In this document: one piece after another, positions 1 to 27,988 of the stretch | Position numbering within the stretch: position 1 is the stretch's first letter | Layout of the letters: each line of letters opens with the position of its first letter | Virus record (IMG/VR): IMGVR_UViG_3300046373_000243 | Span: 1 to 27,994 of that record | DNA: 27,994 nt | Strand: one strand, 5' to 3' | DNA from: a virus | Made by a program: the position numbers and the translations under genes | The notes under the pieces: generated by a model | Told to the model about the DNA's origin: nothing | Databases searched by the model: none | Seen by the model: the letters and a program-made list of their open reading frames with translations, nothing else

Positions 1-1032
1 ATGAAAATAATGTCATGTAAGGCCAAGCTTTACCATCAAAGAAAACAAATTAGAACCAATCGGCTTCTGATTAGAGCTGCTGGCAAGTTGCGAAATGTTG
101 AATACGTTCGTTTACTTGAGAAAAGTCGCAAGCGACGACCTGTAAGAATTTTAGCTCCAGAGTATTTGATTTTGAATGACGATAATCATCGAGAAAATTT
201 GGTGGTATTTCTTCGGGATTTGGAAAGAGAGTTGAAGTCTGGATTTAAGGTAATAATTGATTTTTCGCCGACAATTAAGCTGCATCCTTGTGGGACACTT
301 TATCTTATTGCTAATCTAGATGAGTTTTTGGCGGAGTATCCGGGTTCATTGAGTTGCAAACTGCCTAAAGATAATGTCGTTGAACAATTGTTTCAACACG
401 TCGGATTACTCTCTAAGTTGGGCAGAGCTTCGCAATTGGCCGTTACTGCTTCTAATGTGGTTAATTGGCATTATGCTACAGGATCTGATGCTACCACGAA
501 TACTTTTAAGGCACTCCTAATGCAGCATGGGGATGCAATGGGCGGGATTTTAATTCGCTCAAACTTATATGATTGTATGAGTGAAGCCGTTACTAATACA
601 AAGAAACATGCTTATCCGAAAGCAATTGGGAGTTTAAATAATTGGTGGATGTTTTCCCAGGCTAGTGGAGATATTCTTCAAGTGGCGATTTGTGATCTGG
701 GAATTGGTATTCCTCGTTCGTTGTTGGAAAAGCCAGAAATGAAGGATTATTTCAGAAAACTCTTCATGATTGGTCGCCAGTCCAGTCATGATAAAACATT
801 AATTAAAATAGCTAGTAGTACAAATCGCTCTAGTACGGGTCTCGAATATCGGGGAAAAGGTTTGCCTCAAATGCTTGACTTTATCAAAAATCAAGATGAT
901 GGTGGATTTCGAGCACAGAGCGGATCGGGGAGCTATACTTATAATGCCTTCTCGAAGAGACAAAAAGAAGTTACTCATAAACAATCTATTAAAGGCACCT
1001 TGGTACAATGGACATTGAAGTTAAAATCCTAA
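1..1032 (+). CDS. GHKL-type ATP-binding protein with STAS-like N-terminal region
   Basis: A 343-residue protein, first gene of a three-gene + strand cassette. The C-terminal half carries the Bergerat (GHKL) ATP-binding signature: an N box around E195-N199-H203 (EAVTNTKKHA), a G1 box D232-L-G-I-G-I and a G2 box around G285-K-G-L. Residues about 80-140 (hydrophobic strand, then a GLLSKLG-type end) resemble the STAS-like region often placed before such ATPases. No dimerisation/phosphoacceptor histidine domain or membrane segment is seen, so it is unlike a classical sensor kinase and closer to SpoIIAB-type or stand-alone ATPases. The ATG is the first base of the window, so the true start could lie upstream. 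The sequence is much more AT-rich than the phage genes to its right, suggesting separate acquisition. Fold call is solid; biological role is unknown. Confidence 0.8.
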   Translation: MKIMSCKAKLYHQRKQIRTNRLLIRAAGKLRNVEYVRLLEKSRKRRPVRILAPEYLILNDDNHRENLVVFLRDLERELKSGFKVIIDFSPTIKLHPCGTLYLIANLDEFLAEYPGSLSCKLPKDNVVEQLFQHVGLLSKLGRASQLAVTASNVVNWHYATGSDATTNTFKALLMQHGDAMGGILIRSNLYDCMSEAVTNTKKHAYPKAIGSLNNWWMFSQASGDILQVAICDLGIGIPRSLLEKPEMKDYFRKLFMIGRQSSHDKTLIKIASSTNRSSTGLEYRGKGLPQMLDFIKNQDDGGFRAQSGSGSYTYNAFSKRQKEVTHKQSIKGTLVQWTLKLKS

Positions 1033-1048
1033 TGAGGGGTTTTGGATT

Positions 1049-1372
1049 ATGAAAAAATTATCTGTCGCAACTGAGTTTTCTGAGTTTCCAGCTGGACGTG
1101 TGCCGGATGATGGCCCAAATTCCGGAGAGAGATTTAGAGAGGAGAAGTTGTTACCTCTTCTTAATGGTTCTGGAGATATAATCGAAATAAATCTCGATGA
1201 AACTATGGGTTATGGGTCTTCTTTTTTGGAGGAGGCTTTTGCTGGACTATTGCGAAATAACGGAAAAACCGAGAAGGAATTAAGGAATCGATTGGTTTTT
1301 GTTGATTCGCGAATAATTTATGAGCTAATGATTTGGGATTATATTGCTGAGGAGCAGGCCCGTGCCCGGTGA
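1049..1372 (+). CDS. STAS-like domain protein (DUF4325-type)
   Basis: A 107-residue protein 16 bp after the ATPase gene, with a good ribosome site (GAGGGG at 1034-1039, 9 bp before the ATG). The stretch around residues 50-70 (LDETMGYGSSFLEEAFAGL) followed by a predicted strand (RLVFVDSR) matches the DUF4325 STAS-like pattern. Members of this family are typically encoded next to GHKL ATPases, by analogy with the anti-sigma/anti-anti-sigma pair SpoIIAB/SpoIIAA. The likely role is partner or substrate of the upstream ATPase; this is inference. Its end overlaps the next gene by 11 bp, so the three genes are probably one transcript. Confidence 0.78.
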   Translation: MKKLSVATEFSEFPAGRVPDDGPNSGERFREEKLLPLLNGSGDIIEINLDETMGYGSSFLEEAFAGLLRNNGKTEKELRNRLVFVDSRIIYELMIWDYIAEEQARAR

Positions 1373-1865
1373 ATGTAATCCAACTTACCTAGAAGTTATA
1401 AGGATAATATTGCCATCTGTCATGGTGGTTATTGGCTGGATTGTTGTTTATAGGTTGCAGAGAAAATCAAATTTCAAGCAGGATGCTCGGAAAGATTTAC
1501 GAGCAAGATTAGATAAGTTGGACTCTGACCTGAAAAGCCTTCGGGATTTTTGTATTGAATATTATACTGATGAAAAGAAGGGTTTTGAAGTTTCTACCCA
1601 GGTAAAGGTCGTTGTGGAGGATATTCGGCGACAATCATACATTCTTTCAAATAATTTCTTGAAAGATGTTGAGAAACCTAAGATGGGAACTTACTTAAAG
1701 AATTTGCATAAGGCAGCGACTGGAGGTACATTTGAATCAAAGGTTAGGCTACCTTTGGATTCAAATGATTTGCAATTAAATTCTTTGTTTATTAGTTCTG
1801 CTCAGCTGCTAAATTTATTTGAAGATGGTTTCTTTCGTACGTATCCGCCACTGGTGGAAAAATAA
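1362..1865 (+). CDS. Small membrane-anchored coiled-coil protein of unknown function
   Basis: A 167-residue protein. I chose the GTG at 1362 because GAGGAG (1349-1354) sits 7 bp upstream; a TTG at 1344 would add six residues. It has a single N-terminal membrane helix (about residues 9-27, IILPSVMVVIGWIVVYRLQ), then a charged, probably coiled-coil stretch (ARKDLRARLDKLDSDLKSLR) and a C-terminal soluble part ending in PPLVEK. No enzyme motif is visible. It overlaps the STAS-like gene and ends 10 bp before the convergent integrase stop. Position and topology would suit an effector or sensor anchored in the inner membrane and controlled by the two upstream proteins, but nothing in the sequence proves this. 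Confidence 0.7.
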   Translation: MPGECNPTYLEVIRIILPSVMVVIGWIVVYRLQRKSNFKQDARKDLRARLDKLDSDLKSLRDFCIEYYTDEKKGFEVSTQVKVVVEDIRRQSYILSNNFLKDVEKPKMGTYLKNLHKAATGGTFESKVRLPLDSNDLQLNSLFISSAQLLNLFEDGFFRTYPPLVEK

Positions 1866-2946: not shown

Positions 2947-3198
2947 TTAACGTACTTTGGACAGGTCTGGCGCCCAGGCCGGCGTGCTCACAAGGCTGGC
3001 GGGATTGATGCCGCTCAAGCGCAGCCTGGCGTACAGGCGCCCGATGATGGGGGCGCCGGCGCGGTTCTTGATGAAGGTCCAGCCGTTTTGCTGCAGCCAT
3101 TTGATCTGATCCACTTTCCGGCAGCAGCCTGAAATGGTTTCCAGCTCTTCCGCAGTCAGGGTTTCGGACTGGATAGAATTGTCAAAAAGGTTATTCAT
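2947..3198 (-). CDS. DUF4224-type small protein next to integrase
   Basis: An 83-residue protein. Its N-terminal half (LTAEELETISGCCRKVDQIKWLQQNGW) fits the DUF4224 pattern of a short helix-turn-helix-like unit found just upstream of phage integrases. Such proteins are plausible excisionase or accessory factors because they sit beside int and no cox gene is present, but I infer that from context only. Its start overlaps the end of the preceding gene by 8 bp (ATGAATAA), implying translational coupling. Confidence 0.75.
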   Translation of the reverse strand: MNNLFDNSIQSETLTAEELETISGCCRKVDQIKWLQQNGWTFIKNRAGAPIIGRLYARLRLSGINPASLVSTPAWAPDLSKVR

Positions 3199-3388
3199 TG
3201 GATGCCGCTTTCGTTATTGCGGGATTGCATGCCTTGCTTTTGCTCGTTGCCAAGGCGAACGCTTCTGCCTCGGTATATTGGGGAACTTCGGCGCCGATCT
3301 TGCGGAAGTCTCTTAGCCTGCAAAATTCTTTATAGTCGGCGTCCTCGTTCAAGGCCGCCACGGCAGGCACTGAGCGTTCCTCTGTCAT
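3191..3388 (-). CDS. Small early-operon protein, function unknown
   Basis: A 65-residue protein rich in charged residues. The ATG at 3388 was chosen because it forms an ATGA overlap with the stop of the upstream gene; longer in-frame extension upstream is low-complexity shadow sequence. A central stretch (YKEFCRLRDFRKIGAEVPQYTEAEAFALA) looks like a compact helical fold. It overlaps the next gene by 8 bp. Not recognised; real because of its tight coupling on both sides. Confidence 0.6.
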   Translation of the reverse strand: MTEERSVPAVAALNEDADYKEFCRLRDFRKIGAEVPQYTEAEAFALATSKSKACNPAITKAASNE

Positions 3389-3624
3389 GCCTGGCAACCG
3401 ACAGGAGCGGTTGCCTTCTTGACCGCCGCGATGGCCGCCAACGGCACCGCACGGAACATGCCCGGCCACTGGTGGTCCAGTTCCACCCATGCGTGCAGTT
3501 CCCCATTGCCCACGTCGCGGCGCAGGTCGTTGACGGTGCCGGCCTGGTAACCTTCGTCGGTGTCGAATGTCACGCGGTCGCCCAGGGCGATTTGCCGCGG
3601 AGAATTGGTCAGGGTGTTCAGCAT
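3385..3624 (-). CDS. Small phage protein with SH3/KOW-like beta-barrel pattern
   Basis: A 79-residue protein starting at the ATG at 3624, which has a strong ribosome site (AAGGAG, 7 bp upstream). The sequence alternates short beta strands (LGDRVTFDTDEGYQAGTV, then HAWVELDHQWPGMFRAVPL), resembling a small SH3/KOW-like barrel, as in conserved hypothetical proteins of the P2 early region. Its stop forms an ATGA overlap with the next gene. Function unknown; fold is inferred by eye. Confidence 0.65.
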   Translation of the reverse strand: MLNTLTNSPRQIALGDRVTFDTDEGYQAGTVNDLRRDVGNGELHAWVELDHQWPGMFRAVPLAAIAAVKKATAPVGCQA

Positions 3625-3770
3625 TGCGATGCTCCTTTCAGTTTGGCGGTAACGCCGCACACGCCGTAGCGGTCGATGGCGGCGTCGATCACGTCGCCGC
3701 TGGATGCGGCAACCTCAAAAAATTCAAAGCGTTCGGTTTGCGTGCGAACGATCACGGCATAGGTGCTCAT
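3618..3770 (-). CDS. 50-residue conserved-type early phage protein
   Basis: A short gene encoding 50 residues, starting MSTYAVIVRTQTERFEFFEV. The ATG at 3770 overlaps the gpA stop (ATGA, 3767-3770), and its own stop overlaps the ATG at 3624. A beta strand is followed by an AASSGDVIDAAIDRYG helix. Proteins of this shape sit between gpA and int in many beta-proteobacterial P2-like phages; no function is known to me. Confidence 0.7.
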   Translation of the reverse strand: MSTYAVIVRTQTERFEFFEVAASSGDVIDAAIDRYGVCGVTAKLKGASQC

Positions 3771-5605
3771 GTGCCATTTCCTTCATGGGGTGGGGTGTCG
3801 GGGACGATCAGCCGGGGATAGGGGCAGGCGTTGACGGCTACCCAGGCCGCAATGACGGCTGTTTTTGCCTCGTCGGGCAGGTCAGGCAGGGGCGCCGCCG
3901 GCGGCGTGGCTGAGGCAGGGCGGTCGGGGTGCGTACAGTTATTTACACGAGTCCGAGGAACGGCAACCCCAACAGCCACCCCGCGCCCGCCTGTGGCCTG
4001 TACCGGCGTCCACGTATGGCGCACGGACTTGAAGACCACGCCAATCAGGTCGCTGCAACGCACGCCGTAGGGCGTGGTGCGCAGCGTTTCGCCGTAGCGG
4101 CCGATGACGGTTTTTTCGTCCTTGGCCAGGGTGACGACCAGTTCCTTGCGCGGCACCAGGGCGCCGCCCTGGGCGCGAAGGTATTCGGCCCAGCAGGCGC
4201 GCTTTTCGCCGTCGATCTTTTGCACGGCGTCCCAGGCGCGGCGCATGGCGGCGGGGGCTTCGTTGAGCATGCTTTCTTCGATGCGGCGCAGTTCGCGCCA
4301 CACGGTGACGGGCGCGCCGCCCCATTGCTGGAATTGACGGATTCCCCAGCATGCAGCCCAGGACTCGACGCGCGCCGATGGCGTCAGCTCGACATCGCCT
4401 TCGGTGTCGGCCGTGACGAGATAGCCTTCTTTCGTCTTGTGTTCGGCCACGCCGTCGATGTTCTTGGCCACGTACTTGGCGATGTAGCCGGCGGCGCTGC
4501 CCTTGGCCCAGTCGATGCGTTTCACGTCCAGGCGGCGCGCGAAGGCGCCCGGCTCGCCACGGTCCACGCGCCAGGCGTAGCGCTTCATGATGCGGATGGC
4601 TCGGCCCGCCACGTCCCGCAGGTGGGCCGTCTTGTACTTGGCCGTAGGCCGGACGAACAGCAGCAGATGCCAATGCGGACAGCCATCGTGATGCGGCTCG
4701 GCGATGCGAAAGCCGTACAGGCCGATGCCACGGCGCGCCAGTGCGGAGCGGCACAGCGACGTCATCTTGCCCAGGTAGGCGTTTGCCTCGCGCGGCGTGG
4801 AACCGTCGAACTTGTCGTTTGGCTTGCCGCTGTGCTGCATGGCGTGAAAGCGCGATGGGCACGTCCAGGTGATGAAGATGCCCTGGTCGCCGCACTCGCG
4901 GGCGATCTGCTCGAAGCCGTTGATGCGCAACATCAGCTCGCCGCGCCGGATGGCTTTATTCGCCGTCGTTTTCTCGGCCAGCTCGGCGATGCTGAATTGC
5001 TGGCCGTTCTCGTTCTGTACCAGGGTGGCGGCCAGCGCCGCCGCGTTGCGGCGGTTTTGCGCCAGGCGCGACAGCACGGCGTCATTGCTGGCGTAGGGTT
5101 CGCCGCGATAGTTCACGTAGCCCAGGCGGATATTGCCGGCTTCAAAGGCGCGCTTGACCCGCTTGCGCAACTGGCGGCGCCACCAACGGGCATCCACGAG
5201 GCGGGCGATGGTGTCGGTCAGCGCGTCGAATTCGGGCAGCTCGATGCCATACGAGGCGCATTCGTCGGCCATGATCTGCAGGGCGTGCGTGTCGGACACA
5301 GCCATCCACAGCATTTTGGTAACGCCGGCCGCCGCGCGCTCGGCGGTGGCCACAATGTCGGCGTCGCTTTGCGACAGGTCGACGCCGGCCGGCACGTACT
5401 GCTCGGCGAACTCGCGCACAAAGCTGGTGGCGATGGATTCATAGATTTTGTACCAGGACGACCAGGCCATTTTTGCCATTGCGGCCGTGATGACGCGGTT
5501 GCGCCATTTGTAGGGAATGCGGGCCAGCTCGGGCGCGAACTGGGCGGAGCGCAAAAAGGCTTCGTGACGCTGCGGGGCCGGCAGCAGGATTTGTTTAGAT
5601 TGCAT
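3767..5605 (-). CDS. A: Replication initiator gpA (HUH endonuclease)
   Basis: A 612-residue rolling-circle replication initiator of the P2 gpA family. It nicks the phage origin and covalently joins the 5' end. The metal-binding HUH motif is at H311-W-H313 (CPHWHLLLF), and the paired active-site tyrosines are Y374 and Y378 in YIAKYVAKN, spaced by three residues as in P2 gpA. The full length suggests it is intact; the C-terminal 70 residues are proline/alanine-rich. The ATG at 5605 lies 11 bp inside the end of the chimeric gene upstream. In P2 the origin lies within the A gene; I did not locate the nick site. Because of the upstream deletion this gene now follows directly on the tail operon. 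Confidence 0.93.
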   Translation of the reverse strand: MQSKQILLPAPQRHEAFLRSAQFAPELARIPYKWRNRVITAAMAKMAWSSWYKIYESIATSFVREFAEQYVPAGVDLSQSDADIVATAERAAAGVTKMLWMAVSDTHALQIMADECASYGIELPEFDALTDTIARLVDARWWRRQLRKRVKRAFEAGNIRLGYVNYRGEPYASNDAVLSRLAQNRRNAAALAATLVQNENGQQFSIAELAEKTTANKAIRRGELMLRINGFEQIARECGDQGIFITWTCPSRFHAMQHSGKPNDKFDGSTPREANAYLGKMTSLCRSALARRGIGLYGFRIAEPHHDGCPHWHLLLFVRPTAKYKTAHLRDVAGRAIRIMKRYAWRVDRGEPGAFARRLDVKRIDWAKGSAAGYIAKYVAKNIDGVAEHKTKEGYLVTADTEGDVELTPSARVESWAACWGIRQFQQWGGAPVTVWRELRRIEESMLNEAPAAMRRAWDAVQKIDGEKRACWAEYLRAQGGALVPRKELVVTLAKDEKTVIGRYGETLRTTPYGVRCSDLIGVVFKSVRHTWTPVQATGGRGVAVGVAVPRTRVNNCTHPDRPASATPPAAPLPDLPDEAKTAVIAAWVAVNACPYPRLIVPDTPPHEGNGT

Positions 5606-6035
5606 TCAACAGTCTTTCGTACACACGGATAGCGGCAGAGGTGGCGGCGCGCAGCTCGATGCGCTCTTCCTCGGTAAATGAATGGATGGGCGATTCCCAT
5701 CGGTCGGCGTCCAGGCCGGCGGCGATCAGCACGGAACGGCGCGCGGCACGCGGCGACAATCCCCAGGCCTGGGCGATAAAGCGCGCCTCGCTGGCACGCC
5801 GCTGCTCGATGGTGCGCAAGCTGGCCCGCTCGGCCAAACTGGCTTTCGCCGCTGCGATGGCGGCCAGCGCCTCCGGCGCCCCTGGGGGCGTCGGCACGTC
5901 CCTGTCACGCGCGGCGAGGATGGCCTTCAAAGCCTTGGCCGTGTCGCTGGAGCCGCCCATGATTTTTTTCAGCGGGCCGGTCAGCTTGTCCAGCGCTGCA
6001 AACACTACCTGTAACTTCAAATCCCGACCAGCCAT
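5595..6035 (-). pseudogene. T: Chimeric remnant: N-terminus of tape measure gpT fused to an early-region ORF
   Basis: A 146-codon ORF starting directly after the E' stop (TAG then ATG), exactly where gpT should start. The first ~40 residues (MAGRDLKLQVVFAALDKLTG, then PLKKIMGGSSDTAKALKA) read like the start of a P2 tape measure. The rest (about residues 42-146) has no tape-measure character: it is a compact alanine/arginine-rich sequence ending LLNAI and overlaps the gpA start by 11 bp, like an early-operon gene. P2 gpT is about 800 residues. The simplest reading is an in-frame deletion joining T to the 3' part of a gene upstream of gpA, with loss of most of T plus U, D, ogr and the repressor/cox region. 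The junction is near 5895-5925. Confidence 0.8.
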
Positions 6036-6157: not shown

Positions 6158-6466
6158 CTACTTCGCCGGGGATACCGAAAGGCGATCGGCTTTGCTCGCC
6201 AAAAAACCGGCAACCTCGGCGCCCACGGCGAGCAAGTCGGCCGGGTCCATGTTGGCGATGTCGTGCGCGGTCAAGGTTGGCTCGGTGATACGCGGCAGCA
6301 CGATCTGCAGGGCCGACACGTTCAGGTTGGCCAGCTCGATCAGGGAAATGCCGCGCAGGGCGCCCGCCTTGGGCTTGCGCACGGTCAGCGCGGTGATGAA
6401 GCTGTCGCCGCGCTTGATCGGGTCGTCCAGCTCGATGACGGCGCTGTTTTGGGTATCGTTGTTCAT
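6158..6466 (-). CDS. E: Tail assembly protein gpE
   Basis: A 102-residue tail assembly protein of the P2 gpE family (TIELDDPIKRG-like start, LRGISLIEL, then an NMDPADLLAVGAEVAGFL helix). It sits between the tail tube gene and T, as expected for a tape-measure chaperone. The ATG at 6466 has AAGGA upstream. About 13 codons before its stop is the heptamer T-TTT-TTG in the zero frame, where a fraction of ribosomes should shift -1 into E'. Confidence 0.9.
   Translation of the reverse strand: MNNDTQNSAVIELDDPIKRGDSFITALTVRKPKAGALRGISLIELANLNVSALQIVLPRITEPTLTAHDIANMDPADLLAVGAEVAGFLASKADRLSVSPAK
6200..6206 (-). promoter_or_regulatory. -1 programmed frameshift site (T TTT TTG) linking E to E'
   Basis: On the minus strand the codons GGT TTT TTG of gpE contain the X-XXY-YYZ slippery heptamer T-TTT-TTG in the correct phase. 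This is, from memory, the same heptamer as in P2 E/E'. Reading in the -1 frame from here is open through the E' start at 6149 to the stop at 6036. Confidence 0.85.
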
Positions 6467-6503: not shown

Positions 6504-7013
6504 TTACAGGCCGATGGCCTTGCGGATGGCCGCATTGGTGTCGCCGCCGCCGAAGTTCTCGGTGCCGCTCATGAAGTCCAGTTCGATGACGGTGGCGCCG
6601 TCGATCATCAGTTTGTAATAGCTGCAAGCCATGGTGTATTTGTGGGTGGTGTCGTCGCCCATCTTGGCCGCGCCCATGTCGATTTCCTTGTAACGGCCGC
6701 GCACGACGACCTCGACGGCGGCGACGCTGCCGTCATCGTCGTTCTGGTAAGCACCGGCAAAGCGCAGTTGCACGGCGCCGTGCGTGTGCGCGCCGTACTG
6801 TTTCAGGGCTTCGGCGATCAGGCCGCCGGCGCTCCATTCCAACGACAGCGCCTCATTGCCGAAGTCCACGGAAACGGGGCCGCTCATGCCGCCGGCGCGG
6901 TACTCTTCCATCTTGCGGCTCAGTTTTGGCAAGGTGACTTCGGGCACCATGCCCATGAACAGCACGCCATTTTGAAATACGTTGAATTGCTTGAGTTTGT
7001 GGGGCATGCCCAT
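6504..7013 (-). CDS. FII: Major tail tube protein gpFII
   Basis: A 169-residue protein forming the inner tube of the contractile tail. It matches the P2 gpFII family throughout: start MGMPHKLKQFNVFQNG, LPKLSRKMEEYRAGGM, and a C-terminal YKLMIDGATVIELDFMSGTE segment. The length is close to P2 FII (172). The ATG at 7013 has TGGAGAA upstream. Apparently intact, although its sheath partner FI is broken. Confidence 0.95.
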   Translation of the reverse strand: MGMPHKLKQFNVFQNGVLFMGMVPEVTLPKLSRKMEEYRAGGMSGPVSVDFGNEALSLEWSAGGLIAEALKQYGAHTHGAVQLRFAGAYQNDDDGSVAAVEVVVRGRYKEIDMGAAKMGDDTTHKYTMACSYYKLMIDGATVIELDFMSGTENFGGGDTNAAIRKAIGL

Positions 7014-7063: not shown

Positions 7064-7447
7064 TTAAGCCGCGATGCGCGAGGCGAAGTCGGCCAGGTAG
7101 CGGTCGGTGATGCGCTGCTGGAATTTCAGGTTTTCCAGCGGCGGCACGGGCGTGTAGTCGTAGTCGATGGCCAGCTTGCCGTCTTTCAGCGCCGTCTTGT
7201 CGTTGTACTGCTCGTCATACCAGGCATGGCCGTCGATGATGTAGCCCTGCAATTTCAAGTCGCGGAACTTGGCGTTGATGCTTTCCAGCAGATCGCGCAC
7301 CAGGGACGGATGCAGGGGCACGTCGACGTACGCGAAATGCGCCTCGGCGATGGTGTCGGCCAGCACTTGGGCCGTGCGCGTGTAGCTTTCGAAATAGAAG
7401 AATCCGCCCGGCGCCTCGCAGGTGCGCGAACCCCAGAAGCGGTATCC
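7064..7447 (-). pseudogene. FI: C-terminal remnant of tail sheath protein gpFI
   Basis: Only about 127 residues of the contractile sheath remain, from [20 protein letters not shown] to the end ([10 protein letters not shown]). P2 FI is about 396 residues, so roughly the N-terminal two thirds are missing. The remnant has no start codon of its own at the boundary; upstream in its frame is meaningless arginine-rich sequence from another gene's reverse frame. The remaining segment includes the conserved [20 protein letters not shown] region. Without the N-terminal part the sheath cannot polymerise, so the tail should be non-functional. Confidence 0.88.
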
Positions 7448-7761
7448 GTGTCGCCGTCGGCCATGGCGGCAAAGCCAATGCCGGCCAGGCGGTTGAGGAT
7501 GGCACCGCGCCTCTGGCGCACGCTGGCCAGGTAGGGGGCGGCCTGCACGGCAAACGGTGGCGGCGGGGGCGCGCTGATGTCCCACTTGCCGCCGGATTTC
7601 TTGCGGATGGTGGCGCCGGCGGCAATGGCCTCGCGCAGCACGGTTTCGTCTTCTGGCGTGACTGCGATGCCATCGGCCGGCCAGGTGCCTGCCGCTTCAT
7701 ACGCGGCCTGCATATCCGCCGGAAAGAAGCCACGGACCTTGTTGGAGTAGAACGTCGTCAT
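7255..7761 (-). pseudogene. G: Tail fibre assembly protein (DUF4376-type), 3' end replaced by a deletion
   Basis: Starts at ATG 7761, one base after the H stop, where P2 gene G (tail fibre assembly) lies. Residues 1-107 are coherent: MTTFYSNKVRGFFPADMQAA at the start and, from about residue 78, the DUF4376 core [20 protein letters not shown] then [10 protein letters not shown]. In this family the core continues with an ARQALLDI-like helix; here from about residue 108 the frame runs out of phase through the FI remnant to a stop at 7255. The junction is near 7441-7447. The normal protein chaperones fibre folding, so fibre attachment may also fail. Confidence 0.8.
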
Positions 7762-7762
7762 G

Positions 7763-9388
7763 TTATTTTCCGATGGCGAGGAAGTTGATGGAGGTATCAG
7801 CGGCGGCCGCATAGACGTTGAACCCGGTAATGCTGGGGAGGTCCGAGCTGACGTAGCCAGGGGAGTTGCCATTCGATACAGTTACGAAGACGCGCAGGCA
7901 CTCCTTCGGAAAGGCAAACTTGAATGCCACGCGCGTGCCTTCCGGACTTCCCGTAATGGCGCCCCATTGCATGATGAGGTCGCCGGGCAGTTTCAGATCG
8001 CCGCCGGGCAGCAGCCGGGAGGCAAAGTCCGCGTTGCGCCACAGCTCGGCGGTCGATTCGATGACTTGCCATACGCCATCGCCGGTCGCCATCAAGGTAA
8101 GGAATTGCCCCTTCTTGATTGTGATGCTGGGCACGTCGCCGACATCAAACCGCATGTTGACACCAGGCGCGGCAAGGATGGTTCCGCCATTGAAGATGCC
8201 GACGAACTTGACGCACTTGCCGGAATGGTCGGCAATGCCGAGCGAGCGCGGATTGGGAATCGTGATGCTCTTGCCTGCATAGGGAAAGTGCAGGGCACAG
8301 CCCACGTCATCGGCGGTGAGCGTGCGGCTTTCGATGACATCGACATGGCCCGCCATGTTTCCTTGCGCTTGCTGCACAAAATCGGTGTTGGCAAGCCTGT
8401 TCGACACGTCGAACTTTGGTGGCGTCGCCACCTCTTTCATGCTGTATTGCGGGTGCGGGTCAAGAGCGTTCGCGTGCTGGGCCAACTGCTGATCGCCATA
8501 GTTGCGAGCCGTGATGTACATCCGATCGACATAGTCGACCTTCGCCAGCAGCGGGTGCGGGTCGGCAGCTTCCAGATGCCCGGCCAGTTGCTGGTCGCCA
8601 TAGGCGCGAGCCGTGATGTACATCCGATCGACATAGTCGATCTTCGCCAGCAGCGGATGCGGGTCGGCAGCTGCCTGATGCTCGGCCAGTTGCTGGTCGC
8701 CATAGGCGCGTGCCGTGATATACATCCGATCGACATAGGCGATCTTCGCCAGGAGCGGGTGCGGGTCGGCAGCTGCCAGGTGCTCGGCCAATTGCTGGTC
8801 GCCATAGGCGCGAGCGGTGATGTACATGCGATCGACATAGTCGATCTTCGCCAGCAGCGGGTGCGGGTCAGCGGCGGCCAGGTGCTTGGCCAGTTGCGCA
8901 TCGCTGTAGGCGCGCACAGTAATGTCCTGGTCATCGACATATTTACGAGTGGCCAGGATGATGGACGGATCGATTTTCAGCTCGATGGCGGCCGTGCTGG
9001 CGACGATGAGCACGATGCGCACCACTTGCGTGCGCCCGCTGCCTTCAAGCATCAGGGGCTTGTAGCTGGGCGGGCAGTTGGCCACAGCGCACAGGTCGCC
9101 GGCCTCGTCGTAGATACCGATTTCACGTATCCACCAGCCGCCCACGTCCTCGGGCAGCACCTGCTCGACGATGATCTGGCTGGCATTGGCCGGGTCGACC
9201 GTCAGCTGATTCAGTCCTGCGCGGCGCACTTCGCGCACCAGCGTCTTTTGCGTGCGCACTGGCATGGGCAGATTGCCGTTGCCGTCGCCCACGGCCATGG
9301 TTTTCAGTTTCAGGGTGTGACCCAGGGCGATGGCGTTGGCCAGCTTGGCCTCGCCCACTTCGGTCAGGATGGCAAAGTATGTGCTCAT
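7763..9388 (-). CDS. H: Tail fibre protein gpH with five ~34-residue repeats
   Basis: A 541-residue receptor-binding tail fibre. The start at ATG 9388 gives the typical N-terminus MSTYFAILTEVGEAKLANAI of the P2-like fibre (DUF3751-type, residues 1-150) that attaches to the baseplate. Residues about 160-318 are near-identical 34-residue units built on AYGDQQLAEHLAAADPHPLL and AKIDYVDRMYITAR. The C-terminus (about 460-541, LPGDLIMQWG ... GFNVYAAAADTSINFLAIGK) resembles the Gp53-like fibre tip domain that contacts the receptor. It overlaps gpI by 4 bp (ATGA). It is shorter than P2 H (669), but fibres vary widely. Confidence 0.92.
   Translation of the reverse strand: MSTYFAILTEVGEAKLANAIALGHTLKLKTMAVGDGNGNLPMPVRTQKTLVREVRRAGLNQLTVDPANASQIIVEQVLPEDVGGWWIREIGIYDEAGDLCAVANCPPSYKPLMLEGSGRTQVVRIVLIVASTAAIELKIDPSIILATRKYVDDQDITVRAYSDAQLAKHLAAADPHPLLAKIDYVDRMYITARAYGDQQLAEHLAAADPHPLLAKIAYVDRMYITARAYGDQQLAEHQAAADPHPLLAKIDYVDRMYITARAYGDQQLAGHLEAADPHPLLAKVDYVDRMYITARNYGDQQLAQHANALDPHPQYSMKEVATPPKFDVSNRLANTDFVQQAQGNMAGHVDVIESRTLTADDVGCALHFPYAGKSITIPNPRSLGIADHSGKCVKFVGIFNGGTILAAPGVNMRFDVGDVPSITIKKGQFLTLMATGDGVWQVIESTAELWRNADFASRLLPGGDLKLPGDLIMQWGAITGSPEGTRVAFKFAFPKECLRVFVTVSNGNSPGYVSSDLPSITGFNVYAAAADTSINFLAIGK
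8435..8911 (-). repeat. In-gene tandem repeat, about 4.7 units of 102 bp
   Basis: Within the fibre gene, units of 102 bp recur at constant spacing; the TCGCCATAG marker appears near 8497, 8598, 8700 and 8802. Each encodes 34 residues; the last unit is partial and divergent (ends ANALDPHPQY). The preceding KYVDDQDITVRA looks like a decayed half unit. High identity suggests recent duplication or gene conversion. Confidence 0.9.
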
Positions 9389-10005
9389 GGATAGATGGTG
9401 AGAGTGTCGATGGTATGGGATGCGCCGGCCTGCAAGAGCGTGCCGCGCACTTCGATGGTTTCCGCGATCCAGGGATACACGGTCATGGCGTCGCCGTGGT
9501 AGGCGCAAGCGCCCGCGTAGACGTTGCCGCGACTTTCCAGATAAATGGCCAGGCCCGTCATGTGGCGGCTGACGGGCTTAGCGTCGGCAATCAGGCGTTC
9601 CATTTCCAGAAACATGGCGTCGGTGATGCCCGTGTCGAGCACGCCCACGTCGAGGCGGAACGTGCCCGGTACGCCTGGTGGCGTGGTTTGCCACCATTCG
9701 GTAATGCGGATCAAATAGCCCAGGGATTCGACCACGCGGCGCACGGCGGCAATGGTGCCCTTGTGCTTGTGAATGAAATAGGACGCCTTGATCGTGCCGC
9801 GCTTGATCGACTCGGGCCAGGCATCGTCCCAACGGTCGACGGAACAGGCCCAGGCCAGAAACGGCAGCAGGGCAACGGGGCAGCGGTCGGCGTTCCACAG
9901 GTCGCGCAGCGGTACGGGCACGTTGACCAGCTCGGCGCAGGCCACGGCAATGGCGCGTTCCAGCGCGGTGGTGTTGGGCGGCAGGGTGGGCACGTGTTTA
10001 TTCAT
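9385..10005 (-). CDS. I: Baseplate wedge / tail protein gpI
   Basis: A 206-residue baseplate protein of the P2 gpI family (LPPNTTALERAIAVACAEL at the start; LLPFLAWACSVDRWDDAWPE; a GTFRLDVGVLDTGI segment). I chose the ATG at 10005 because it forms an 8-bp ATGAATAA overlap with the J stop; a start at 10020 would add five atypical residues. It ends in an ATGA overlap with H. Confidence 0.93.
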   Translation of the reverse strand: MNKHVPTLPPNTTALERAIAVACAELVNVPVPLRDLWNADRCPVALLPFLAWACSVDRWDDAWPESIKRGTIKASYFIHKHKGTIAAVRRVVESLGYLIRITEWWQTTPPGVPGTFRLDVGVLDTGITDAMFLEMERLIADAKPVSRHMTGLAIYLESRGNVYAGACAYHGDAMTVYPWIAETIEVRGTLLQAGASHTIDTLTIYP

Positions 10006-12037: not shown

Positions 12038-12436
12038 TTACTGGTCGCTACTTGCTGGTATCCCTAATCTGGATTCTAAAACCGTAGGTCCGGCAGTGAA
12101 TAAGATAGCTCCATATACCCAGCCCAACAGTAGAGTAGGGAAAAAATAAAAGTTGCTAATTGGGTATTCTCGAATCAGAATAGATGTTCCCCTGAGCGCA
12201 AGTTCCGCAGCAAACGCCGCTGCAATCCCTCCGAGAAATCCTACAATTGCACCTAAAAGTGCTCGGTTGTACCATGGATAAGTACAAATAGATCGGTTCA
12301 ATATATAGATCGATAGGGAAATAAATGTGAGTAATGTGCACGTAATTACAAAAACGTTATAGTGTCGAGCAATCATGCAAGTCCATAAAACCTGTAAGAT
12401 GGTGCTTAATGCTATAAAGAAAATATTTATTTTCAT
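12038..12436 (-). CDS. Four-helix membrane protein, putative immunity protein for the YD-repeat toxin
   Basis: A 132-residue hydrophobic protein with about four membrane helices (roughly residues 4-24, 28-47, 58-80 and 95-118) and a short polar C-terminus. Its ATG at 12436 overlaps the stop of the YD-repeat gene (ATGA), so it is translationally coupled to the toxin-like C-terminus. A small gene of different character directly after a polymorphic toxin is the classic position of an immunity gene. An integral-membrane immunity protein would suit a toxin acting at or near the inner membrane or periplasm. No family recognised; the role is inference from position. Confidence 0.7.
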
Positions 12437-15400
12437 TGTTTTTTTCCCGCATCACGAAAAAGATTTCCTGGGAATAAAGTTCCGCTCGTTACGTGCGGAA
12501 AATATGGCGACTGATTTAATACATTTGAAACATTTACGGCGCATTGAGCGATACCCGGGCTTTGCATCCCTTCAATTTTTTGCAATAACCGTTGTTCCTC
12601 TTTTTTGTTTGTGTTTTTGCAATTTTTCTCAATTTTCGAGTCGGCGTGGTACTTTGAAAATTTACCTATACTCGCTGTGCTTCCCTCTACCACATCACCA
12701 GTGCCGCCGCCGTTGCTTTGCGCGTACGAACCGCTAGGATCAAATAAAATCGGTTGCCCTCTTTCGCCCGCCTGTGACATGTAAAGCGCCGCATGATCTC
12801 GAAATCCCCATGAATTGGTTGTTACCAGCACGCACGTTTCGAGTCCGTTAGAATCAATAGACAAAATGGGATTTCCTCCAACATATGCATAGGTATTGAT
12901 ACCTCCGGCTAGTCCAATTGGATCACTCTGCAAATACCGCCCCAGCGATGCATCATAGTAGCGATTCCAGTTGTACCACAATCCTGATTCAGTGTCGTAA
13001 TACTGCCCTGGGAAACCGATATGCATGCCTCCGATAGTATCAACGGTGACCTGGCGGTCGAACGCGGCGTTGGTGGCACGCCAGGCAACGGCGCCATTCG
13101 AATCGGTCAGCACTTCCGGACGACCAAGATGATCGTTATGGCTGGCATAGAACCGGCCGGAACGTGCCATACCTAACAGCTCGCCGCCGAGCCAGACATA
13201 ACTCGTGCCGACCGAGTTCAACTCAGCCAGCAGTTCGCCTTGCGGGCCATAGATTGCGAATGTGGCAGTTCCAGCGACGTAGCGATAAACACGTTGATTA
13301 AGTGCATTGCTGCGATAAGCCGAAACAGTCCCATTGACATTAATGCCGAAGATACGATTAAACGTATCATACATATATGTTCGATATCCATCATGTCGCG
13401 ACTCACTGACGACATTTCCAATTGCATCATATGTAAAATTGCGGAACTGACCATTTCCACTCCAAGAAGACAATCGGTTGCTGCTTGCATCCGGCACAAA
13501 ATTATAGCCAGTGTTCTTGCGAGTATGCAGTGTTCGATTTCCGGCCTGATCAATGGAGAAAAATTGTGAGTCACCATCACGCCAGATACTCGTCACACGA
13601 TCAGCCATGTCGTAATCAAGCACTTGCGACTGCGCTGGATTGCCATAGTCAGTCATCTTCGTCAGATTGTCGACGGGACTGTATTCAATGTCGACATGCT
13701 GACCGCCTCCATATAGCGAAGTAGTGCGCCCATCGGCATCATAAGTAACCTTGCGCGGCTTGTTATTGCCAAAACGCCAGGCATAGCGCTGGCCACTTAC
13801 AGGCTGATAGAGAAATGAGTCGGCGATAGTGCTCCACGCTCCTTGGTTGCTTGTAATCGAAGCGATGCGTCCCACACTGTCGTACTGGTAATTAATTACT
13901 ACACCAGTGGGATAACTCATACTTGTCCGTCGCCCAGCAGTATCATAACTCCAGCTCGTTGTATGTAACCCACCGTAAATATTGTTAACCTGCTGAACGA
14001 TCTCGCCTGCGGCATTGTAACTATAAGTGGTTTTCCCCGTGTCATCGTTGAGTCGCGTCAGTCGTCCCTTGCCAAAGGCACCTTCATCATAGGTAAATGT
14101 TTCCACGTAACCATTGCTGCTGCGGGAAGTTTTACGTCCCAGTACATCCCAACTATATTGAATAATGATACCCGCCGCATTCTTTTCATTCAGGAGACGG
14201 CCGGCACTGTCGTAGGCATATATAGTCGTTCCCGTATCTGGACTGATGATGCTGGTTACCTGGCCAAAGCCGTTGTAGGTATACTGTGTTTGCAGCGGGC
14301 GGGGATCGGTCACCGATGTCAGGTTGCCTTGCTCATCATAGGTCATGGTCGTCGTACCGCCATCAGCAGCCACGCTGCTCACAAGACGGTTCTCCGCGTC
14401 ATATTCATAAGTTGTAACGCGGCCTTGAGCATCCGTGCTGCTTGTTAAATTACCATTGTTATCGTAGCGTTTTTCGACCTGTTGGCCATTGTTGCCCAAC
14501 TGCGTGTACGGGCGGCCCAATGAATCAAGGGCGGTGGTACTACTAAAATCCGTCGTGCCCACTGCGACTGGCACTGTGCCATTGATTTCGGCATAGTGCC
14601 TGGGGGAGCTGGTTTGCACAGTGTTGTCAGTTATGTTCACTGCTATGCGCGCGACCTCACCCAGCGCGTCACCGACAGATTCCAGTCGGCCAGCTGCGTT
14701 ATATTGGTAGCGCGCCATGCTACCGTCAAGATAAGCTATCGTACTAGGTTGACGAGCATGATTGTACGTATATGTTGTTGTCCGAACACCGCCAATTAGA
14801 CGTTTCTCAGTGGTGAGTAAATTACTCTTTTCATCATACGTGTAGTCAGTCGCAACGCCATTTTCATCTACCATCCGGCCCGGAAATCCTCGTCCGTTAT
14901 AGCCCGAATACTTCACTTGATGGCCTAACGCATTGGTGACTGATATAAGATTCGCTGCGCTATCATAGGCGTAAATTGTAGACGAAATCGCATCCGCCAA
15001 GGTCTGATTGACTGTGTACGTATTGGTTACGCCAGATGGATGATATGTATACTGATATTCAAATTTTCGTTGGCTACCCGTCAAAAGATCCGTTGCTGTT
15101 TCAGATGCGAGGCGATTCAAGCCGAATCCACTGGAAAAGTATGTATAAACGGTACGCGAAATATTTAATCCAGAAGATCCGTAAAAATCTACTTGGATTA
15201 AGTTATTTCCATTCCATGTGTAAATTTGTTTTTTTTCCAATGATGTACCTGCTGCATTAGTCAACTGCAACAGCTTTCCAGTCGCATCGTAACTATAATC
15301 GGTTTTGATGCCATTCCAATCCAACGTATAGTCTACCCAGCCATTGGAGTCATAGGTTGTATGTGCATTGGCAGCGGAACATGTACTGGAAGCTGCTCGT

Positions 15401-16584
15401 GAAACAGTACTTAGTTTAAGCGAACCTTGAACAGGGACAAATGTATAGGTAGTTGTCTGGTTGGCTGAATTTTTTATTGTTGTTGAATTACTTGCGTAAG
15501 TAAAAGTATCAGCTTCCTCGCCTCCGGCAAGTGAGCTAATATGCACACGTTTATCTGCATAATAGCTATAGGTGCTATAGCGCTCACCGTTAATTGACAC
15601 TCCTGTTAAAAGTGAATAATCTATGTTAGGGCTTTCATAGTGATATGTTCGAACATCTGGTGATATTCCTGGTGAGGTGACGGATGAAAGTAAATTGACA
15701 TTGGCGTATTGGTAACTCCACTCATTTCCGTCTTGATCGCGAGCCTTCGATACATACCAGTCTGGATTGTAGGTGAAATCAATAAAATTACCCGCAGCAT
15801 TGATTACTCGACTAGGAAGTTTATTGTTGATAGTGTAGTTAAATTTCAGAAGGTTGACGCCACCTCTGGTGCTGATATTCTGGATGACGCCGAGCGTGGA
15901 GTAGTTATATATTAACGAATCTGTGATTATTTTATATCCATTTTCGGGTGAATATGTCATTTTCCCCATTGCGGAAGAATTATTGACGGTGTAGGTGAAG
16001 TTATAGGCTGCATTGGATTTGAATGTATATCTTGCGCCATCAGACAAGGTGAACACCACTGAGGTCGGCATACACTTGCTTGGGTAGTCGGAACTCCGAA
16101 AGCAGCCAGATGTTTGCAGCGGAGCGAAATCATAGGTGGAATTCCAGCGATTACCAAACATTCGCGCAGAGGTATCAAAGCTTTTGTAGGTTCTATCAAG
16201 TCCCATACTAAATTCGCCCTCGGCCACAATGTCATGCTCAGTCTTGAATTTCTCGCCCGTAGCAATGATCACAGGATTCGATGTCGAGGGGCTTTTTCCT
16301 TCGCAATCGTTTGGTGCCGTATTGGCATCTGAGCTTGCCTTCTCCTTCGCCGGTGATTTGCGCCCCCCACCCGAACTTCCATTTGTCGGACTGTACGATC
16401 CATGGGTACGCGGTCGAGTATCGCCGTAATTTGGAGGCCGCTGGTCATTAATGTAAACCCTATCTTCATAAGCGCGAGGAGGGGGAATTCCTTGTTCGTT
16501 CATCGCTATGGCAACTGAAGTAATCCCACTCAAAACCAGTGCAGCGGATATGTTAAACCAAACATGATTTAGACAACTTTTCAA
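12433..16584 (-). CDS. Sec-exported YD-repeat (Rhs-like) protein with C-terminal toxin-like domain
   Basis: A 1383-residue secreted polymorphic-toxin-like protein. Residues 1-27 form a signal peptide (positive start, hydrophobic core [14 protein letters not shown]). Then come a low-complexity linker, a DUF6531-like Rhs N-terminal block ([20 protein letters not shown], about 104-140), a long run of YD repeats (YDSAGRL, YDADGRT and similar) and the Rhs core end ([20 protein letters not shown]), near residue 1230. The last ~134 residues (1250-1383) are the variable tip, with H1264 (DHAALYM), DPSG at 1282 and C1348 ([10 protein letters not shown]). The start is a TTG at 16584 with GGAGG four bases upstream. 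It is AT-rich unlike the flanking phage genes, has its own promoter and sits between S and V, so it is cargo. No VgrG or PAAR domain is fused, so export is more likely Sec-dependent than by T6SS. Confidence 0.85.
12436..12837 (-). other. Toxin-like C-terminal domain of the YD-repeat protein
   Basis: This segment encodes residues 1250-1383, directly after the Rhs core. The visible order is beta strand, H1264 in a DHAALYM strand, DPSGSY, a lysine-rich helix region, then C1348 at the start of a helix (CAVNVSNVL), and a final FPGNLF. A histidine strand preceding a helix-starting cysteine is the order of permuted papain-fold (NlpC/P60/LRAT-like) enzymes, so a peptidase, amidase or acyltransferase activity is plausible. 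I recall similar H..DPSGSY..C..FPGN tips in other bacterial Rhs proteins, without a proven activity. Confidence 0.5.
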
Positions 16585-26250: not shown

Positions 26251-26592
26251 ATGATGATTGTTAAAATGTTAAAGATGCGCCTTGCTGGGGTGGAGGTGCC
26301 CAAGCGACGGCTGCATGATCGCTACAACTCGGCACGGCCCGGCACGTTGGAAGTCGTTGAAACGACAGACCAGGGCTTGCACCGGTTGGTGAAGCTGGCC
26401 CGCTTCACTTACGGAGAGAGTGGAAACTACGTTGACACACTTTTCGGCGTGAATTTGCTCTGGTATCGGGATGGGCGCATGGTGCTGTCAGGGTTTGAGC
26501 GCAGCAAAGTAGGTATGCAATTTTGCGACTATGCGCAGTCCTGGCTGTGTTTTGTCGGGACGGAGCCGCCGCCAGTGCCAGAAGGCAGGTAG
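26251..26592 (+). CDS. Unknown 113-residue SOS-controlled protein
   Basis: The ATG at 26251 follows TAGGTG and sits just after the LexA box. The protein (MMIVKMLKMRLAGVEVPKRR at the start) has no signal or membrane segment. Its C-terminal half looks beta-rich (FGVNLLWYRDGRMVLSGFER) and it ends PPPVPEGR. I do not recognise a family. It precedes the SRAP gene by 10 bp, so the two are very likely co-transcribed and induced by DNA damage. Confidence 0.75.
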   Translation: MMIVKMLKMRLAGVEVPKRRLHDRYNSARPGTLEVVETTDQGLHRLVKLARFTYGESGNYVDTLFGVNLLWYRDGRMVLSGFERSKVGMQFCDYAQSWLCFVGTEPPPVPEGR

Positions 26593-26602
26593 AATAAATT
26601 GC

Positions 26603-27241
26603 ATGTGCGCCGACTATACCCCCAGCCGTAGCGATCAAATCGAACAGCATTTTGCTGTCCGCTCCCCTCAATTTGACCTGCCGCCGGAAGCCTGGCCAGG
26701 CTACATGGCGCCGATCATTCGCGCGTCGCACGACGTGCCCGGTGATATGGAAGTCGCTCCGGCATGTTTCGGAATGGTTCCGCATTGGGCCGATATGAAG
26801 CTGGCGCGGCAGACCTACAACGCCCGCACCGAAACCGTGGCGCAGAAGCCATCCTTCCGCAATGCCTGGAAGCGCAAACAGTTCTGCATTATCCCTGCAG
26901 ATAACTTCTTTGAACCCTGCTACGAAACAGGGAAGCCGATCCGCTGGCGCATCGAGCGCGCCGATGGCATGCCGGCCGCCATCGCCGGGATATGGGAATT
27001 CCGGCCGCAAGATTTGCTGTTGTCGTTCTCGATGCTGACGATAAACGCCGATGGCCACCCGCTCATGCAGAGTTTCCACAAGCCGGATGATGAAAAGCGC
27101 ATGGTGATGATTCTCGACCCGGACCAGTATCACGGCTGGCTCGATGGCTCTCTTGTGAGCGAAGAGGATCTGTTTCAGCAGTATCCAGCAGAGTGCCTAA
27201 TGGCTGTAGCTGATCCGCTTCCGCCGCGTGTGAAAAAATGA
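26603..27241 (+). CDS. SOS response-associated peptidase (SRAP; YedK/HMCES family)
   Basis: A 212-residue SRAP-domain protein that forms a DNA-protein crosslink at abasic sites in single-stranded DNA. All active residues are placed as in YedK: C2 (exposed after Met removal), N73 (NARTET), E104 (NFFEP) and H159 (SFHKPDDEKRM). The start at 26603 is fixed by the required MC N-terminus. Second gene of the LexA-controlled operon. SRAP genes are frequent on phages and mobile elements as well as chromosomes, so it cannot settle whether this part is prophage or host. Confidence 0.93.
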   Translation: MCADYTPSRSDQIEQHFAVRSPQFDLPPEAWPGYMAPIIRASHDVPGDMEVAPACFGMVPHWADMKLARQTYNARTETVAQKPSFRNAWKRKQFCIIPADNFFEPCYETGKPIRWRIERADGMPAAIAGIWEFRPQDLLLSFSMLTINADGHPLMQSFHKPDDEKRMVMILDPDQYHGWLDGSLVSEEDLFQQYPAECLMAVADPLPPRVKK

Positions 27242-27607: not shown

Positions 27608-27988
27608 CTATTCTACAGGAGGGACGTTTAGGATTTGACGGAAGAGACGGGGGGCATAAAACAACTGCGCAGTATCTCCATCTTTGTTCCAGACGGTTTT
27701 TTTATGGTTCCAATGTAGAGCATACATGTCTTTGCCATCGTTAGATTTTTCCATGCCATCAACACCGCTTCGCGTCCGCAGACTGATAAAAGTTCCCTTT
27801 TTAAGAATTAACTGCGGAAAGACATAGGCATGACGATTCGTGTTCGACACTTCGTGATCATCAGTGAATGTATTGTCCATTAGAATATAGTTTCCGAGGT
27901 TTACCTCTTCCATGGCTTGCAACCACACGTACTCTTTTTTCAAATCCCCTGGGTTTCTGACCGCCCACAAACGTAAATCATTTGACAT
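27608..27988 (-). CDS. Lamin-tail-domain-like protein
   Basis: A 126-residue protein. The pattern GNYILMDN, HAYVFPQLILKKGTFISLRT, ALHWNHKKTVWNKDGDTAQL then LF follows the lamin-tail (LTD) immunoglobulin-like fold: a YxFP strand, a KKGT turn and the WNxxGDTAxL signature. It has no signal peptide and no attached enzyme domain, unlike many bacterial LTD proteins. ATG 27988 is near the window end, so a longer upstream start cannot be excluded. AT-rich; function unknown. Confidence 0.65.
   Translation of the reverse strand: MSNDLRLWAVRNPGDLKKEYVWLQAMEEVNLGNYILMDNTFTDDHEVSNTNRHAYVFPQLILKKGTFISLRTRSGVDGMEKSNDGKDMYALHWNHKKTVWNKDGDTAQLFYAPRLFRQILNVPPVE

Follow-up and report, generated by a model that had tools for sequence, protein, structure and literature searches.

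Introduction

P2-like prophages are defined in this work by their gene set and gene order, i.e. Q P O N M L, the lysis genes, R S V W J I H G FI FII E T U D, Ogr, A and int, with Ogr being the activator of the P2 late genes. A tailocin is a complete contractile tail with its sheath, without head genes. The capsid-forming PICIs, as presented in PMC10690885, carry head and packaging genes of their own and need a tail from another phage. Defective prophages are recognisable prophages with large deletions: a review describes "grounded" prophages as highly deletion-prone (PMC6379469), and defective prophages are reported as elements that can be inducible and sometimes transferable (PMC2669165).

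The subject of this analysis is the IMG/VR virus record IMGVR_UViG_3300046373_000243, whose 27,994 bases constitute the whole stretch of DNA that we have analysed, hereafter "the window". We consider it probable (roughly 0.85) that the window is a P2-like prophage of a Janthinobacterium-type host, recently inactivated by two separate illegitimate deletions: deletion 1, located between the tape measure gene T and gene A, and deletion 2, located between the fibre assembly gene G and the sheath gene FI. In kind, the element looks like an ordinary decaying P2-like prophage, real at the level of the record. A non-exhaustive literature search has found no title on this element.

Results and Discussion

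Comparison of the window with the described systems

The phage genes of the window are arranged in P2 order, mostly on the minus strand, and the P2 set is present apart from the parts lost at the two junctions (the end of G with the first part of FI, and most of T with the two genes that follow it) and Ogr; genes without a family match presumably correspond to the letters that we have given them from gene order. Intact P2-like prophages (such as loci L015, L031, L081 and L191) resemble the window in gene order, where compared, and in the protein identity of the shared genes (70-100%), but they keep a full sheath of about 391 residues; in L191, the tape measure is also present, together with two more tail genes and the Ogr-type and HTH regulators.

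As in defective prophages, virion-essential genes that are intact in the relatives have been lost: the sheath is matched at positions 347-475 or 347-476 of the 496 of its profile, depending on the search, and the tape measure at positions 109-182 or 100-175 of 1228. Against the accounts in PMC6379469 and PMC2669165, we find no weighty difference, the window being a case of two clean deletions with shared words. The capsid-forming PICIs of PMC10690885 also combine their own head and packaging genes with dependence on a foreign tail, but the window keeps part of its tail module (FII, E, H and I-V remain) and its loss has come about through two simple deletions, which does not correspond to a lineage with head and packaging genes and without the tail module. 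With its head genes present and its sheath broken, the window is the reverse of a tailocin.

The nearest kin of the sheath remnant and of gpA are found in virus records, and those of the sheath remnant also in Janthinobacterium genomes; judging from this kinship, the host of the prophage would be of the Janthinobacterium type. Phage and plasmid collections match the window at only 60-80% identity. No tRNA has been found within the window, and no attachment repeat is obvious by eye among its listed direct repeats.

The junction between G and FI

The fibre assembly gene G (tfa) is located at 7440..7761 on the minus strand and keeps its N-terminal ~107 codons; it matches phrog_188 (E 2.8e-9), at residues 1-91 only, and its read-through frame is 83% identical to L029, L031 and L032 over residues 1-113. 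The last 127 codons of the tail sheath gene FI lie at 7064..7447 of the same strand, out of frame with G, and match Pfam PF17482 (Phage_sheath_1C, E 2.5e-16) as well as phrog_23, at the profile positions given above, while Pfam Phage_sheath_1 has no match anywhere in the record.

By alignment to intact relatives, which defines the breakpoints and the shared word, G ends and FI sequence begins on one and the same word, TACCG, at 7440..7444 (minus strand). The sequence-only reading had described G as coherent to about residue 107, with the frame breaking at 7441-7447, where sheath sequence appears, and with the first two thirds of FI gone, and the alignment bears this out in all three respects. 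All eight relatives that were inspected base by base carry an extra 1,014-1,019 bp between the two breakpoints, so the break is no chance reading; deletion 2 shortens G by its last 60-63 residues and FI by 264 of its 391 (68%). On the G side, TACCG occurs in three of the eight relatives (L015, L025 and L032), the other five having ACCG preceded by a different base; on the FI side, it occurs in seven, with TATCG in L017. The shared word is thus 5 bp long, or 4 bp if the lost ancestor carried the other G allele.

The description of the junction as a fusion holds for the DNA but not for the protein. The read-through frame (7255..7761, minus strand) comprises residues 1-107 of G, followed by 61 unrelated residues through sheath DNA up to a stop at 7255, so that no G-FI fusion protein is encoded; we have accordingly rejected such a protein, the two frames being out of register at the junction. 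The FI frame opens mechanically with a GTG at 7585 inside G, a putative start only.

The junction between T and the small frame before gene A

Deletion 1 extends from codon 38 of T to just before gene A. The first ~38 codons of T are kept at 5921..6035 (minus strand), the part matched by phrog_28, and are joined in frame to the 3' part of a small open reading frame that precedes A (5595..5921, minus strand; 97% to L178, L191 and L192 over residues 38-146). T matches the relatives down to 5921-5923, the match of the small frame begins at 5921-5925, and the junction word, GGCCA, is located at 5921..5925 (minus strand). The distance between the two points is 7,621-8,318 bp in the six relatives whose alignments are in register (L191, L199, L192, L180, L209 and L186), i.e. 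7.6-8.3 kb are missing; the row of L167 is out of register and has been left out of the sizing. GGCCA is present on the T side in five of the six (all except L199) and on the pre-A side in two, L191 and L192, which thus have the word on both sides; immediately past the junction, it is again these two to which the window is most similar, which makes theirs the likely ancestral allele. As a side observation, the deletion is in frame by chance, and an open chimera of 146 residues results (5595-6035, minus strand).

The missing stretch has been annotated in detail in L191 only, where it contains the rest of an 884-residue tape measure, two tail proteins (phrog_76 and phrog_52, which we take from gene order to be U and D), a membrane protein, an HTH regulator, an Arc-like protein and an Ogr/Delta zinc finger. 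Matches to Ogr_Delta are found in all 11 comparator records, always above the cut-off, and to HTH_3 likewise in all 11, above the cut-off in eight; the same search gives no match to either in the window. Two internal deletions in tail genes had been proposed from the sequence alone: that there are two deletions joining genes has stood, while deletion 1 is larger than that reading implied and is not confined to tail genes, since its 7.6-8.3 kb also include the Ogr-type and HTH stretch.

State of the other genes

We have compared 27 frames of the window with the loci, covering the window outside 1-1865, 3191-3660, 12038-12436 and 27608-27988. Nearly all are full length, with 85-100% identity in the best match, V aligning over 220 of 221 residues and the best match of H having 70% identity; the exceptions are the two broken places and the RHS cargo (53-71% over part). 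The tail tube FII (6504..7013, minus strand; PF04985, E 7.7e-61) is intact and 100% identical to L020 over its full length, and the tail chaperone E (6158..6466, minus strand; PF10109) is intact by comparison with relatives, as is the replication initiator gpA (3767..5605, minus strand; PF05840, E 5.5e-76), which is 98% identical to L163 over its full length. The tail fibre H (7763..9394, minus strand; PF12571, E 3.5e-58) is full length by comparison with relatives, and the five best matches listed for the holin (123 aa) all have 100% identity to it.

No further disabled phage gene has been found among the frames compared, which fits a recent loss and likewise fits an artefact. The frames for head, packaging, lysis, replication and integration are intact; the earlier statement that the head, packaging and lysis genes are spared is therefore correct as to their frames, while a wider sparing of non-tail functions is contradicted by the control genes lost in deletion 1.

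Within H, at 8446-8958 (minus strand), there are direct repeats with a 102-bp unit, in four registered copies that are 77-100% identical to the reference; the recurrence of the blastn hits suggests such repeats in relatives as well. The RHS-repeat protein, of 1,383 residues, is a cargo protein whose gene separates those designated V and S (12433-16584, minus strand); it is matched by only four of the loci compared, and in L083 the same site has about 400 bp between the matching flanks.

Occurrence of the losses among relatives

The exact 30-mer of the G/FI junction has no match in the viral contigs, a set that may omit the window's own record. The G/FI join is found in none of the 147 loci retrieved with the sheath remnant and at none of the 25 strong sheath places in 40 genomes of the genus Janthinobacterium, to which the genome of L081 belongs (best 15 first-look candidates per genome). 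These 25 places are distributed over 16 of the 40 genomes; their matches to the sheath half have E-values of 4.1e-82 or lower and all begin at query position 314 or 315. The sheath frame is at least 370 aa long in 140 of the 147 loci and is cut by the contig start in five (343-364 aa). Of the remaining two, L020 had the appearance of a second broken sheath but carries a frameshift, and L147 is what is left of a decayed copy in Yersinia.

A further set was based on the capsid: from the best 80 of at least 600 stretches, 53 records with a length of at least 28 kb were chosen, of which 48 were searched. In all 48, the sheath match begins no later than profile position 19 and reaches at least position 476, so that no record without a sheath occurs among them, and neither there nor in the genus genomes has a lineage of PICI-like elements been found. 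The tape measure is also matched in all 48 and is incomplete in two, being cut by the record end in G077 and broken over frames in G076. Since many of the 48 recur among the matches of the sheath-remnant search, the counts are not independent.

Proposed origin of the deletions and alternative explanations

Each deletion would have joined two places with a common word of ~5 bp (TACCG at G/FI and GGCCA at T/pre-A), with loss of the DNA in between, by a route of the type of replication slippage or microhomology-mediated end joining. Deletion 2 would have cost G its end and FI two thirds of its length; deletion 1 would have taken most of T, the next two tail genes, the Ogr-type activator and the HTH regulator. 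Among random pairs of breakpoints, the share of draws with 5 or more bases in common is 0.73-0.91%, and that with 4 or more is 2.1-2.6% (five relatives, 20,000 draws each, at a spacing of ~1 kb, against ~8 kb at deletion 1); two shared words are thus unlikely by chance, which argues for deletion at short repeats, given the best-matching alleles. The 5-bp overlaps depend on these alleles, as TACCG is present on the G side in three of eight relatives and GGCCA on the pre-A side in two of six. The recency and the order of the events are what we infer from the present state of the window. With sheath, tape measure and Ogr absent in cis, the prophage is probably unable to build a tail by itself and should yield no infectious particle of its own. 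One point counts against this explanation: according to the review PMC6379469, large prophage deletions affect accessory genes more often than repressor, replication, capsid or packaging genes, and a regulator is among the losses here.

Since the junction is absent from every other record searched, deletion 2 rests on one assembly, a single record, which is what would be expected if the missing segments were present in the source DNA and had been skipped by the assembler or lost in a chimeric read. Related prophages that occur together make assembly harder, and of the 16 genomes in which the sheath is strongly matched, eight carry two or more such places (in G036, on two different contigs). 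We nevertheless regard this artefact as unlikely: only ~4-5 bases are common at each junction, usual assembler k-mers are well above that length, and if co-resident prophages had been confused, a switch at homologous places would be more likely than a jump from G to FI.

Considerably less probable is a selected, tail-less head-and-packaging element, comparable to a capsid-forming PICI, for which intact P2-like prophages in the same cell supply the tails and the late activation. Equally improbable is its incipient form: the sheath, tape measure, late activator and regulator would have been shed by a P2-like prophage that now rides in tails supplied by co-resident P2-like prophages, as a first step towards a head-only satellite, and the window would then show the beginnings of such satellites. 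The intact frames for head, packaging, lysis, replication and integration and the frequency of potential helpers in the genus are compatible with such an element, and PMC2669165 reports that defective prophages of O157 can be induced and released as particulate DNA and, in some cases, transferred. But no second element with such losses has been found among the loci, the genus genomes and the capsid-bearing records searched, hence nothing points to selection or spread; unlike a streamlined satellite, the window retains FII, E, H, I, J, W and V; and recent loss alone accounts for the intact head, packaging and lysis genes, without selection. A normal G and FI pair with a sequencing frameshift is hardly credible, for frameshifts of the sheath gene do occur in such records (L020) but here ~1 kb is missing, not shifted, and the 1,014-1,019 bp by which the relatives are longer rule out a reading by frameshift only.

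Inactivation by two deletions explains why the record has no complete sheath or tape measure, which is of little consequence beyond bookkeeping; in counts of complete phage genomes, the record should be left out.

Additional features of the window

At 1-1865 (plus strand), the integrase is adjoined by a protein of phrog_3364, whose HATPase match is weak and below the cut-off, by a STAS-like protein (DUF4325) and by a third small protein; these are possibly cargo or defence genes, and a counterpart over most of their length is found in one of the 40 genus genomes (74%). At the right end, where the genus genomes give no match beyond about 27304, the frame at 27608-27988 (minus strand) has a weak Lamin Tail Domain match, below the cut-off. 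Near the same end, an SRAP (SOS-associated peptidase) gene is located at 26531-27241 (plus strand), with matches in 14 of the loci compared.
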